The translations under genes and the position numbers were made by a program. Below, piece by piece: positions 8,887 through 16,557 of a stretch of DNA of 64,000 bases. The notes below the pieces were generated by a model. That model was not told the DNA's origin. It did no database searches and was given only the letters and a program-made list of their open reading frames with translations. Position 1 is the first letter of the stretch; every line of letters begins with the position of its first letter. Source of the DNA: Acaryochloris sp. IP29b_bin.148 (lineage in GTDB: Bacteria > Cyanobacteriota > Cyanobacteriia > Thermosynechococcales > Thermosynechococcaceae); NCBI RefSeq assembly GCF_028285565.1, contig NZ_JANQOY010000046.1:1-64000 (forward strand), read 5' to 3'.

Positions 8887-10713
8887 ATGACGGATCGTCG
8901 ACAGGATTCTTATGCCGTCCGAGTTGAAGCAGCGGAACTGGCTAGAAGTCGGAATCACCCTAACCATCAAGCGAATGGCGATGAGCAACGATATGCGGGC
9001 GACCAATACTTCATGTCTTTTACAAAGGGATTACCTCACAATCCTGATACTGGATTGTTAGAAGATCCACAAGATTTTGTAGAATTTCGTCGTGCCATTG
9101 ATGACGGCTTTATTGACCCTTTTTCTGATAGAGTTCGCCACGGTGCTTTATTTGTTGTGGGTGCTGGTGGAGTAATGCCTGACCCAGCCCCAACTAATGA
9201 TTTTCGACAGTGGGAAGCACCCACAGCAGGGGTCGTTTTCGAGTTAGAGGGACCGGATGCCCAGGCGGTAACCATGCCCCCCGCGCCTCCCTTAGTGGAT
9301 GCCAGTGGCAATGTGAATCCAGAGCTAGTTTTTGAAATGGCAGAAGTTTATGAACTCGCCATTCTGCGAGATCAGCCCTTCAATGACTTTGAGACTGGAA
9401 CAGCCAATGCTGACATTACCAACTCAATTGCCCGCCTAAATGCGCTTAGTTATATAACCAATGGTCAACCTGGACGCCCTCGGAAAGTCGATAGTGCAGG
9501 CGAACTTGATCCACAAACGGTATTCCGAGGATCTTCTCCAGGGGTAGAGGTTGGTCCTTATCTGTCTCAGTTTTTACTGATCGGTAATACTGACCGTAAT
9601 GGCAACGGTAGCGTCGATCAAGGTTTGATTACGTATGGTGTGTTGCACATCGATCAAAAAGTTCCCCTTGCCCAACCTGGGGAAGACTATATGCGGGAAA
9701 TGGATGACTATGTCCTTGTTCAGCGCGGCATTAGGCCAGGTCCAGAAAATTATGTCCCAGATGGCGGGGCCTCTTCTCGCCCATTACGCCGCTTTATCTC
9801 AACGCCCCGAGATCTAGCCACCTACGTGCATTATGATGCGCTGTACGAAGCCTATCTCAATGCTTGTATTATTCTGTTGGAGATGGGAACCCCGTTCGAT
9901 CCTAGCTTTGATCACTTGTCTGGTGTAGGGGCAGCCGCTAGTAGTGCGTCTACTCGACGGAATGCAGGTGGTTTTGCCCTGTATGGTGGCCCACATATTC
10001 TCAATCTGGTAACCGAAGTGGCAACACGTGCCCTAAAGGCCGTGCGTTTTCAGAAGTTCAATAACCATATTCGCCTACGGCCAGAAGCATTGGCCGCTCG
10101 CCTTGAACTCGTTCGACTCGGCTTACCTGCTCCTCCAGCGTTGATATCTAGTATGGGAACGTTTAGGGGAATATTAGAGAACAATAGTGGGGGGACATTA
10201 AATGCGATCGCAGCCCTTCCAGGTGTGGGGGCAGGCAGTTATTTCTTACCGATGGCATTCCCTGAAGGCTCACCGATGCACCCTGCCTATGGTGCTGGCC
10301 ACGCTACAGTGGCCGGAGCCTGTGTCACGATACTCAAGGCATTTTTCGATACCAGTGCAGTACTGGCCGAATCAGGTGGAACGGTGACCTTTAAGCGATT
10401 GAGTAGCGGTGATACTCCAATTGCCTTTCGTGCCCCTGCTATATCTAACCCGCCTGGAGGGACGCTTGATGCCTCTACTCCAGATGAGTTTCTGACCTTA
10501 GAAGGTGAGCTGAATAAGCTTGCAGCCAATATTTCTATTGGTCGGGACATGGCAGGAGTTCATTACTTTACTGACTACTACGATAGTTTGCGCATGGGTG
10601 AGGAAATTGCGATCGGTATTCTAGAAGAGCAGGCCTTAACCTATTCAACGGATCCCTTTGTATTATCTTTGCCCACTTTTGATGGCGACGTTAGGAGGAT
10701 TGGCAGCCGATGA
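8887..10713 (+). CDS. Vanadium-dependent haloperoxidase (bromoperoxidase type)
   Basis: This 608-residue enzyme belongs to the algal-type vanadium haloperoxidases, which oxidise halides with hydrogen peroxide. The vanadate pocket is readable: Lys390 and Arg398 (FQKFNNHIRLRPE), HPAYGAGHA with His465 and acid-base His472, and GRDMAGVHY with Arg553 and axial His559. Spacings match the Corallina enzyme. The Ser found two residues before the acid-base His in Corallina is Ala470 here. No signal peptide is evident. The protein closely recalls the characterised Acaryochloris marina enzyme. Its stop overlaps the start of the next gene as ATGA, so the two are probably co-translated. Halide preference cannot be read directly. 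Confidence 0.95.
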   Translation: MTDRRQDSYAVRVEAAELARSRNHPNHQANGDEQRYAGDQYFMSFTKGLPHNPDTGLLEDPQDFVEFRRAIDDGFIDPFSDRVRHGALFVVGAGGVMPDPAPTNDFRQWEAPTAGVVFELEGPDAQAVTMPPAPPLVDASGNVNPELVFEMAEVYELAILRDQPFNDFETGTANADITNSIARLNALSYITNGQPGRPRKVDSAGELDPQTVFRGSSPGVEVGPYLSQFLLIGNTDRNGNGSVDQGLITYGVLHIDQKVPLAQPGEDYMREMDDYVLVQRGIRPGPENYVPDGGASSRPLRRFISTPRDLATYVHYDALYEAYLNACIILLEMGTPFDPSFDHLSGVGAAASSASTRRNAGGFALYGGPHILNLVTEVATRALKAVRFQKFNNHIRLRPEALAARLELVRLGLPAPPALISSMGTFRGILENNSGGTLNAIAALPGVGAGSYFLPMAFPEGSPMHPAYGAGHATVAGACVTILKAFFDTSAVLAESGGTVTFKRLSSGDTPIAFRAPAISNPPGGTLDASTPDEFLTLEGELNKLAANISIGRDMAGVHYFTDYYDSLRMGEEIAIGILEEQALTYSTDPFVLSLPTFDGDVRRIGSR

Positions 10714-13884: not shown

Positions 13885-16557
13885 CTAATTTAGAATAGCG
13901 ACCTCAGGTTCTGTAGTGGTTTCAGCTACCGAGACGTACTTCATGATGTACTCCACTGTTTTAGGCGTAATCCAGCCATGACTTGCAAGGATTTCTCCCA
14001 AGCGTTGGTCTGAAGTTAACTGTTCCTGTAATGCCTGATCAACCTGGGTTTGGCTGACTAAGCCTGCCTCAACCAAATGCTCTCCAAGCTGAGCATACAC
14101 TTCAATATTTTGACCATTAGCCCAGTTGCTATTGACTCTATCAAGCACGAATTGAATGGTCCGCTCTTTTACCAACCCCTGACTCTGTAAGATTTCACCT
14201 AAACGAACTGAATCTGTCATTTCTTGTTCTGCTAAGGCTGCTTCAAGTTGTTCTGAAGTGAGGAGTCCAGCATCTAGAAGATGACGACCAATGGGTTGAG
14301 ATGGTGCTAACTGCTCAGTAAAGAATTTCAATAGTGGCTGTACATGAACATCTTCTTTCCATTCACTAGCAATATCCTCAATTACATGATGCTCTGAAAC
14401 TAAAATACCTTTACAATAGCGTCGAATGATTGGATGAATCCCTGAACTTAACTCAGCTCTCTTAAGATCATCCTTATGAATTCGCTCGACAGCGAAGGGA
14501 TCAGGGCTTGCATTGATAATATCTAGGCCAAATTCAAGAGTAATCGTATAGTAATGATCATTCTGATTTAAGTCGCTATCTTGAACATAATCAACAGGTA
14601 TATCTTGAAGGTATTGAGCAGAACCTCCATTATCAGGAATATTGATTACATCACAGAGATATCCAGTTTGTTGCCATAATCCAGAACTTCTATTCACCCG
14701 CTCAAGAATTATGTCTGTCATACTTGTAGGATTGATATCACACACTTTATAGGGAAGAGATTGATTATAATACTTCTTCTCTAAGATGTGATGAAGTGCT
14801 CGAATGTTATACCGGAAACCATGAATAAAACCAGATTGTTTCTTCTTAAAATCACGCATGTGCATCAAGACACCAGCAAAATAAAGCTCTGGGATATTGC
14901 TGGATTCCCATTCACAAGTTTGATTAGGAAATCTCTGATTTATAGTTAACTCAGGCTTGCATGAATCATCAAATATTGAGTCATCAAATTGGAAGCCAGC
15001 ACATACTATGACACGATCGTAGACAAGAGATTCTTTTTCCCCATCAGCATGAGTATAATCGAAGTCAACAACAAATTCGCCATTTGAGTAATCAATTCTC
15101 TCAATAAAAGCATCAAGCAATACATTTTGAGATTTTAATTGATATGTATCTAGCAGATTATTGTTAATTGCTCGTAGATGACCTACATACTTCGTTTTCC
15201 AAGCCATAGAAATAGGATTTGGGCTTGCGATATGGATTAGAGAGGCAGTCCCAACTAAGTTGTCAGCAGTTTCGAATCCTGAATTGCCTTTGCCAATAAT
15301 GAGAACACGTTGATTCGCAAAGTCATCAGGATCAACTGAAACATTGGCATAATTCTCTGTATATTCAATACCAGGAATATCTGGTATGTAGGGCTTTGAA
15401 GTTCCAGAAGCAACAATTAATCGTTTTGCTTTATATATATTACCTTGGCTATCTTTAACAATGAATCGTTTATTTTTCCTGATTTGTGTAACTTTACAGT
15501 TATATGTGATGTTTAAATTAAAGTATTCTGAAAAGTCTCCTAAGTATTTTACGAAATCACTAGTATTAGGGAAGTACTCTTTACTATAGTTCTTAAAAAG
15601 CATGTCTTTACTATCACTGAGTAAAGAGTTCCAATCCCATCTTAAATTAATTTCCGTATCATCATAACCTGTATATCTCTTATTTATTGAAATAAGCTTA
15701 TTATGACGTGGATATTCTTTAAAGAAAGTGCCAGCAGCATTTCCTGCTTCCAAAATTTTGTAATCTCTGCCAGTTTTCTCAAGGAAATATCCTAGTTGTA
15801 GCCCTGCAGGGCCAGCACCGATAATTAAATAGTCATGTTCATCTGGTGAATTCTCCACCATACGTTTATGGCTTTGTTCCCTGGCATACATGAGTAATTC
15901 ATTTGTAAATTCGGTAAAGACATCAAATACTTCATCAACCACTGCATAGGCTTGGGTAAGTTCTCTATCTGATAATTTAAGATTTTGAATAAAGAATTCA
16001 GATTCAGTTGAATCAGCAGCATGCCCTGATTCTGCCTCTAGATGCTGATCACCAAAATATCGATATGTTTTTTTAGTGGAAGATTCTAACTCCTTTGCAA
16101 CGGGTGCTATATGAGATGCTGAAATTTGGGCAGTTGCTTCAATTACTTCAATAACGATAAGTTTCTGAATAGGGGTTGCATTCGAAGCACATTCAACCAG
16201 CTTCCGACATAATCGTCTCGTTCTTTGAGTTTCTCGTCCCCAGACAAATCGGAGAACATCCGTAAACCGCATTGATTTGTCTAGTCCCAATTTACGGAGA
16301 TCTCCTAAGAACCATACCCAGTGGTGATCATCTTCATATGTATGCTTATTGATTAAGTGTTGTAGTTCATCATCAGTTGACTCATCTCTTAAAATGCATT
16401 TATTAAGTTCACCAAAACTCATAATAAAAGGAGCTGCACAGGGAGCAAACGAAAGTCTTAATTTAGGATCAATTGTCTTATCTTTAAGAAAATCAAAAAA
16501 AGGCAAGGTGGCAAACTGGTGTTTCTTTTCATCAATATATGCAAGGATATCTTTCAT
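13885..16557 (-). CDS. Three-part oxygenase: heme-oxygenase-like diiron domain, flavin monooxygenase, GspE/MshE-N-like tail
   Basis: The 890-residue protein has three parts. Residues 1-235 are helical with NKHTYEDDHHW (E75-x2-H78), a helix with E137/E140, and HLEAESGH (H172-x3-E176-x2-H179), a ligand pattern like heme-oxygenase-like diiron oxygenases. Residues 242-600 are a flavin-dependent monooxygenase with an FAD motif GAGPAG (247-252), a second Rossmann motif IGKGNSG (421-427) and a VASGTSKPYIPDIPG linker. Residues 755-875 hold two copies of an IGRHLLDAGLLTSEQLEAAL-type module known from the N-terminus of type II secretion/pilus ATPases. The gene is AT-rich, unlike its flanks, and faces away from the giant kinase. 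Domain calls are by motif; substrate and product are unknown. Confidence 0.75.
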   Translation of the reverse strand: MKDILAYIDEKKHQFATLPFFDFLKDKTIDPKLRLSFAPCAAPFIMSFGELNKCILRDESTDDELQHLINKHTYEDDHHWVWFLGDLRKLGLDKSMRFTDVLRFVWGRETQRTRRLCRKLVECASNATPIQKLIVIEVIEATAQISASHIAPVAKELESSTKKTYRYFGDQHLEAESGHAADSTESEFFIQNLKLSDRELTQAYAVVDEVFDVFTEFTNELLMYAREQSHKRMVENSPDEHDYLIIGAGPAGLQLGYFLEKTGRDYKILEAGNAAGTFFKEYPRHNKLISINKRYTGYDDTEINLRWDWNSLLSDSKDMLFKNYSKEYFPNTSDFVKYLGDFSEYFNLNITYNCKVTQIRKNKRFIVKDSQGNIYKAKRLIVASGTSKPYIPDIPGIEYTENYANVSVDPDDFANQRVLIIGKGNSGFETADNLVGTASLIHIASPNPISMAWKTKYVGHLRAINNNLLDTYQLKSQNVLLDAFIERIDYSNGEFVVDFDYTHADGEKESLVYDRVIVCAGFQFDDSIFDDSCKPELTINQRFPNQTCEWESSNIPELYFAGVLMHMRDFKKKQSGFIHGFRYNIRALHHILEKKYYNQSLPYKVCDINPTSMTDIILERVNRSSGLWQQTGYLCDVINIPDNGGSAQYLQDIPVDYVQDSDLNQNDHYYTITLEFGLDIINASPDPFAVERIHKDDLKRAELSSGIHPIIRRYCKGILVSEHHVIEDIASEWKEDVHVQPLLKFFTEQLAPSQPIGRHLLDAGLLTSEQLEAALAEQEMTDSVRLGEILQSQGLVKERTIQFVLDRVNSNWANGQNIEVYAQLGEHLVEAGLVSQTQVDQALQEQLTSDQRLGEILASHGWITPKTVEYIMKYVSVAETTTEPEVAILN

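Follow-up and report, generated by a model that had tools for sequence, protein, structure and literature searches.

The window, by which is meant the whole 64,000-nucleotide stretch of the Acaryochloris contig that was analysed, contains a gene for a protein of 890 residues (Table 1); its coordinates, strand and length are as given in a preliminary description made from the DNA letters, and it reads as one frame from its ATG. Four parts follow one another along the chain, i.e. a heme-oxygenase-like diiron oxidase (HDO) of the type represented by AetD and SktA (residues 1-232), an FAD/NADPH flavoprotein (239-600), a C-terminal extension of the flavoprotein (601-748), and a tail of two helical MshE-N-type modules (755-875). 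The diiron, flavin and tail parts had been recognised in the preliminary description, which overlooked the conserved 601-748 region. Its statement that no characterised enzyme has this design holds for the papers searched, a partial library, in which no fusion of an HDO with a flavin monooxygenase (FMO) is described.

Table 1. The fusion gene, its parts and its divergent neighbour, with positions in the window
Feature	Length or residues	Position	Strand	Basis
Open reading frame of the fusion	890 aa	13885-16557	-	single open frame, ATG start
AetD/SktA-type heme-oxygenase-like diiron oxidase (HDO)	1-232	15862..16557	-	phmmer, predicted structure, family table
FAD/NADPH flavoprotein, Pyr_redox_3	239-600	14758..15843	-	Pfam, motifs, fold, family alignment
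Flavoprotein C-terminal extension	601-748	14314..14757	-	conserved in family alignment; no match in Pfam/NCBIfam
MshE-N-type module 1	755-808	14134..14295	-	NF053729 and motif scan
MshE-N-type module 2	823-875	13933..14091	-	NF053729 and motif scan
Ser/Thr kinase-AAA_16-GAF-HisKA-HATPase hybrid kinase, divergent neighbour	1739 aa	17769..22988	+	Pfam

Apart from the hybrid kinase, the neighbours of the fusion look to be housekeeping genes, and in the window it is adjoined by no gene of evident biosynthetic function, such as one for a tryptophan halogenase. The window does encode a 608-residue vanadium-dependent bromoperoxidase (8887-10713, plus strand; best PDB match 5lpc, E 1e-127), left unnamed by the Pfam and NCBIfam scans; as an obligate partner of the fusion it was rejected, because no homologue is present in the other loci compared.

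An assembly chimera as the origin of the fusion can also be rejected, being contradicted both by an orthologue in a second genome of Acaryochloris (L024; 71% identity, with equal length and order of parts) and by the signal of selection. Comparison of the two genes gives dN values of 0.12-0.29 and, where computable, dS values of 2.5-2.7, dS being saturated for the flavoprotein part; with dN far below the (saturated) dS, all parts of the protein look to be held by selection. Shorter forms include an 831-residue fusion with one MshE-N-type module (L080 in G111), a tailless HDO-flavoprotein fusion from a Silvanigrellales MAG (L009), and a fusion cut by a contig end (L084 in G017). In the HDO tree every fused form falls in one group with moderate support (80/66), which suggests, short of proof, a single gain of the tail. 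In Acaryochloris CRU_2_0 a copy of the fusion (L021, 9902-12677; G005:C95) is split by stops into three frames, and may reflect either decay or an assembly or sequencing error.

That the N-terminal part is a heme-oxygenase-like diiron domain, as originally proposed, is confirmed, and the domain proves far closer to a known enzyme than had been stated. A phmmer search of solved structures returned AetD, the nitrile synthase of Aetokthonos hydrillicola (8ji2-8ji7, 8twn/8twt/8tww), as the only match to the HDO (E 3.2e-51, ungapped over residues 1-227, 37-38% identity), and with the HDO family profile AetD (E 4e-76) again stands well ahead of all other solved structures. Structure prediction, which had been proposed as a check on the metal ligands, was run from a 43-row alignment (mean pLDDT 84, mostly above 90 in residues 1-170), and the HDO part of the model matches AetD (8ji3) with Z 30.9 and an rmsd of 1.3 Å over 224 aligned residues at 38% identity; on this match, the predicted fold is the seven-helix heme-oxygenase-like one.

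The conservation of the metal site is extensive. In AetD, Fe1 is bound by H79, H172 and E176, and Fe2 by D76, E140, E176 and H179 (PMC10654658); all six ligands are kept in the HDO, with identical numbering. H79, E140, H172 and H179 are invariant in the 26 members of the HDO family compared, position 76 being Asp in 25 of them and position 176 Glu or Asp in all. Within the ligand set first suggested, H172, E176 and H179 are thus correct, whereas E75 and H78 are to be replaced by the aligned AetD ligands D76, H79 and E140: E75 is Ala in the orthologue L024 and does not align with an AetD ligand, and position 78 is Arg, Thr, Cys, Ser, Asp or Phe in 10 of the 26 family members. Also shared by the window protein and AetD are the pocket residue F44 and Y167, the latter kept in 25/26 family members and contacting the substrate carboxylate in AetD. 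The position at which the 3H/4C N-oxygenases carry an extra Glu ligand is occupied by F48, as it is in AetD, which is substrate-triggered (PMC11611611). Together, the six ligands, F48 and Y167 fit an α-amino acid sitting on Fe1, and by each feature testable here the HDO belongs with the AetD-type (3H/3C) HDOs. By contrast with AetD itself, which is a lone protein of ~240 residues, the window protein carries three further parts.

The relationship with AetD and SktA, missing from the preliminary description, is the best clue to the substrate. As described in a 2026 review (PMC13108848), SktA converts 5-bromotryptophan to 5-bromoskatole and has T139, T142 and F214, compared with M139, A142 and S214 in AetD; the title of the primary study cited there (10.1021/jacs.4c14573) names skatole and cyanide. 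The window protein has I139, T142 and F214, and both T142 and F214 are found in 25 of the 26 family members, so that the second sphere of the HDO appears closer to that of SktA than to that of AetD; the predicted ligand set is shared with SktA. This comparison was made via the review's description, which mentions no fusion, and it includes a difference at position 139, where SktA has Thr. At position 146, where AetD has the second residue of its indole clamp (Ile), the window protein has Ser and the family varies, such that the substrate may be other than an indole. The substrate inferred here is an α-amino acid, with tryptophan, either unmodified or altered on its ring, as the likeliest candidate.

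The flavoprotein contains both GxGxx[GA] motifs of the class-B FMOs, i.e. GAGPAG for FAD (residues 247-252) and GKGNSG for NADPH (422-427), and its predicted fold is that of YpdA and the small bacterial FMOs (Z 24-26). YpdA/Bdr, SMFMO (4a9w) and 3d1c have the same two-domain Rossmann fold with GxGxxG twice, but share only ~20% identity with it and have neither the 601-748 extension nor the insertion that follows its NADPH motif. The class-B fingerprint FxGxxxHxxx[YFW] is absent between the two Rossmann motifs, the sole F.G...H match lying at 560, C-terminal to the second of them; of the 'complete flavin monooxygenase' proposed earlier, the cofactor motifs and the fold therefore stand, the fold being what suggests monooxygenase activity. 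The 601-748 extension, which has no family match in Pfam or NCBIfam, includes many invariant His, Glu, Trp and Arg residues and is strongly conserved across Cyanobacteria, Bacteroidota and Gemmatimonadota.

The distribution of the two catalytic parts differs. AetD-type HDOs were found in 50 of the 390 cyanobacterial genomes sampled (about one in eight), and strong flavoprotein matches in nine, in all of which the flavoprotein is fused to, or adjoins, an AetD-type HDO; two more distant flavoprotein relatives occur in cyanobacterial genomes that have no such HDO. Beyond the cyanobacteria, with Silvanigrellales as the exception, the flavoprotein occurs without an AetD-type HDO, its neighbours including NRPS genes (L014, L017), an AMP-ligase and a P450 in Nonomuraea (L111), and an FMN-dependent α-hydroxyacid dehydrogenase (FMN_dh) and a P450 in Aquimarina. 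These neighbours suggest an independent role for the flavoprotein in biosynthesis, and its presence in genomes without the HDO implies that it need not act on the HDO substrate. The adenylation enzyme adjacent to the Nonomuraea flavoprotein matches acyl-CoA ligases and gives no clue to a substrate. Searches of 345 genomes from the phylum of Aquimarina and 200 from that of the Gemmatimonadota MAG returned the known carriers and no further flavoprotein, indicating that it is rare.

The genomic partners of other AetD-type HDOs suggest how the two activities may be related. The HDOs of two genomes (G334 and G128) adjoin a PF04820 flavin halogenase and a class-B FMO. Of the 12 FMO-bearing genomes searched, 11 lack a PF04820 gene, and that of Calothrix carries one at a distance of 0.3 Mb. 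In the pathway to the AetD substrate, the substrate is made by AetF, an FMO-type tryptophan halogenase (PMC11611611). The PF04820 neighbours and the order of AetF and AetD point to a recurring scheme in which a flavoenzyme alters an aromatic amino acid that is then cleaved by an HDO, and by analogy the fusion would be a one-chain form of this arrangement. Compact clusters of an HDO, a PF04820 halogenase and a class-B FMO are present in two cyanobacteria (L086, 7900-11895; L089, 4847-9658), where they likely represent halogenated aromatic amino acid pathways.

The reading preferred here, to which we give a probability of about one half, is that the 890-residue protein is a bifunctional oxygenase modifying aromatic amino acids, in which the HDO would cleave the side chain and the flavoprotein would work on either the substrate or the product of this cleavage. 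The α-amino acid, likeliest tryptophan or a ring-modified form of it, would bind directly at the open site on Fe1, where the HDO would activate dioxygen and break the side chain, to give either a nitrile, as with AetD, or a methyl arene and cyanide, as with SktA, T142 and F214 favouring the SktA side. The NADPH/FAD flavoprotein, with its 601-748 extension, may oxygenate or halogenate this molecule, either ahead of side-chain cleavage or following it, and so would fill the role of the flavin halogenase found beside other HDO family members; the fusion would hold both catalysts together. The tail modules are more probably docking units than sensors of c-di-GMP, and the neighbouring hybrid kinase may control the pathway or respond to it. 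The earlier proposal that one chain combines a flavoprotein with an oxygenase of diiron fold, plausibly for one specialised pathway, is supported.

Considerably less likely is a different division of labour. A flavoprotein whose sequence is without the FMO fingerprint may be a reductase, in this case a dedicated NADPH-driven one that re-reduces the diiron site between dioxygen activations, leaving the substrate chemistry to the HDO only. Such a role would suit the proposal that AetD depends on ascorbate or Fe(II) to return its metal site to the diferrous state so that another peroxo species can form (PMC11611611), the presence of TrxR-like ferredoxin-NADP reductases among the fold neighbours of the flavoprotein, and its tight fusion or operon linkage with the HDO. 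It accords less well with the occurrence of the flavoprotein without an HDO beside NRPS, P450 and AMP-ligase genes, or with a best fold group that includes true FMOs (SMFMO, 3d1c); further, the flavoprotein has no CxxC, and the Pfam and NCBIfam scans recognised in the chain no FMN or Fe-S domain that could carry single electrons.

Held with similar reserve is the possibility that the flavoprotein is an AetF-like single-component flavin halogenase, in which case one chain would do the job of both AetF and AetD. The pairing of an FMO-type flavoprotein with an AetD-type HDO equals that of AetF and AetD, and the PF04820 halogenases that pair with HDO relatives are not found nearby in the FMO genomes. 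There are also invariant lysines, e.g. K475, in the insertion that follows the NADPH motif, and the catalytic lysine of AetF, K258, is in a similar insertion of its NADP domain; however, the insertion in the window protein is poorly modelled (pLDDT <50 at 451-473), which precludes a comparison of the lysine positions. AetF structures are absent from the best 60 sequence and profile matches of the flavoprotein to solved structures, and the fold matches listed by VIA-align are small FMOs and YpdA, AetF's absence from that list excluding nothing.

Improbable, by comparison with both of these, is a reading in which the HDO is an N-oxygenase like SznF or RohS and the flavoprotein completes oxidation of the same nitrogen, in line with the N-oxygenase-type chemistry mentioned in the preliminary description: some HDOs and FMOs do act on nitrogen, and an N-hydroxylation step has been proposed for AetD itself (PMC11611611), but with F48 where the 3H/4C enzymes have an additional carboxylate ligand, as in substrate-triggered AetD, and with AetD by far the closest solved structure, it finds no support.

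With regard to the tail, the assignment of two GspE/MshE-N-like modules is confirmed by a profile search, NF053729 matching two stretches at 94.9 bits against a cut-off of 38. The consensus for c-di-GMP binding consists of two RLGxx(LVI)(LVI)xxG(LVI)(LVI)xxxxLxxxLxxQ motifs ~5 residues apart. In module 1, motif I has the form P-I-G...Q and motif II RLG...V; in module 2 the forms are Q-L-G...Q and RLG...V. The Arg of motif I is consequently replaced by P755 and Q823, and the Gln of motif II by V808 and V875, such that both modules depart from the consensus; the motif-II Gln is absent in all such modules examined, from the family and from the same genome. The likeness to MshE and to the MshE-N/GSPII domains of PilB/PilF extends to the tandem 24-residue motifs and the NF053729 match, the difference being the replaced Arg and Gln of the window modules. 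In the GSPII-A domain of PilF, departures at such positions accompany lost c-di-GMP binding, and the motif-II Arg and both Gln residues had to be restored for binding (PMC12002112). The proposal that c-di-GMP, by binding the tail, acts as a switch of the oxygenase is thereby weakened and, judged from these motifs, is unlikely, in spite of a profile match far above the cut-off; docking is the likelier role. HDOs that lack the flavoprotein (L028, L029, L037, L038, L093) carry similar degenerate modules, which also recur in the genome of the window, in several further proteins (L002-L008).

The hybrid kinase had escaped notice in the preliminary description. A gene for such a kinase is within 6 kb of an HDO gene in 9 of the 18 HDO-bearing genomes tested, which have 1-17 such kinase genes each, compared with 0.46 expected under random placement; by genus, the linkage is seen in 6/14 against 0.40 expected (P 5e-7, a value that overstates certainty since bacterial gene order is non-random). 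The link recurs in distant genera, and in Calothrix and Rivularia. It is conceivable, although rather doubtful, that AetD-type HDOs, whether or not fused to the flavoprotein, produce a small signal derived from an amino acid (a nitrile, or skatole and cyanide), in whose production or sensing the adjacent kinase takes part; they would then constitute a chemical signalling module spread through the cyanobacteria, of which the fusion is a self-contained form.

In AetD, one enzyme suffices to turn the side chain of an amino acid into a nitrile, which was reported in 2024 as a new strategy. The presence of relatives in about one-eighth of the cyanobacterial genomes sampled, their ties to flavoenzymes and the kinase linkage make a general role, beyond toxin making, a testable one. 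The fused form offers one gene with which to study both predicted activities, their order and any channelling between them, and its flavoprotein belongs to a family, including the 601-748 region, without an assigned function to date.

Additional copies of the HDO were seen in several settings. A Rivularia MAG (G393) has two AetD-type HDO genes in tandem (L103/L107, G393:C1:225038-226729), as well as an HDO-flavoprotein pair and a fourth HDO copy elsewhere. AetD-type HDOs are also carried on plasmids in Calothrix PCC 7716 (L112), Aulosira NIES-50 (L114) and Streptomyces clavuligerus (L113, pSCL4), where they are annotated as hypothetical or have no listed gene.
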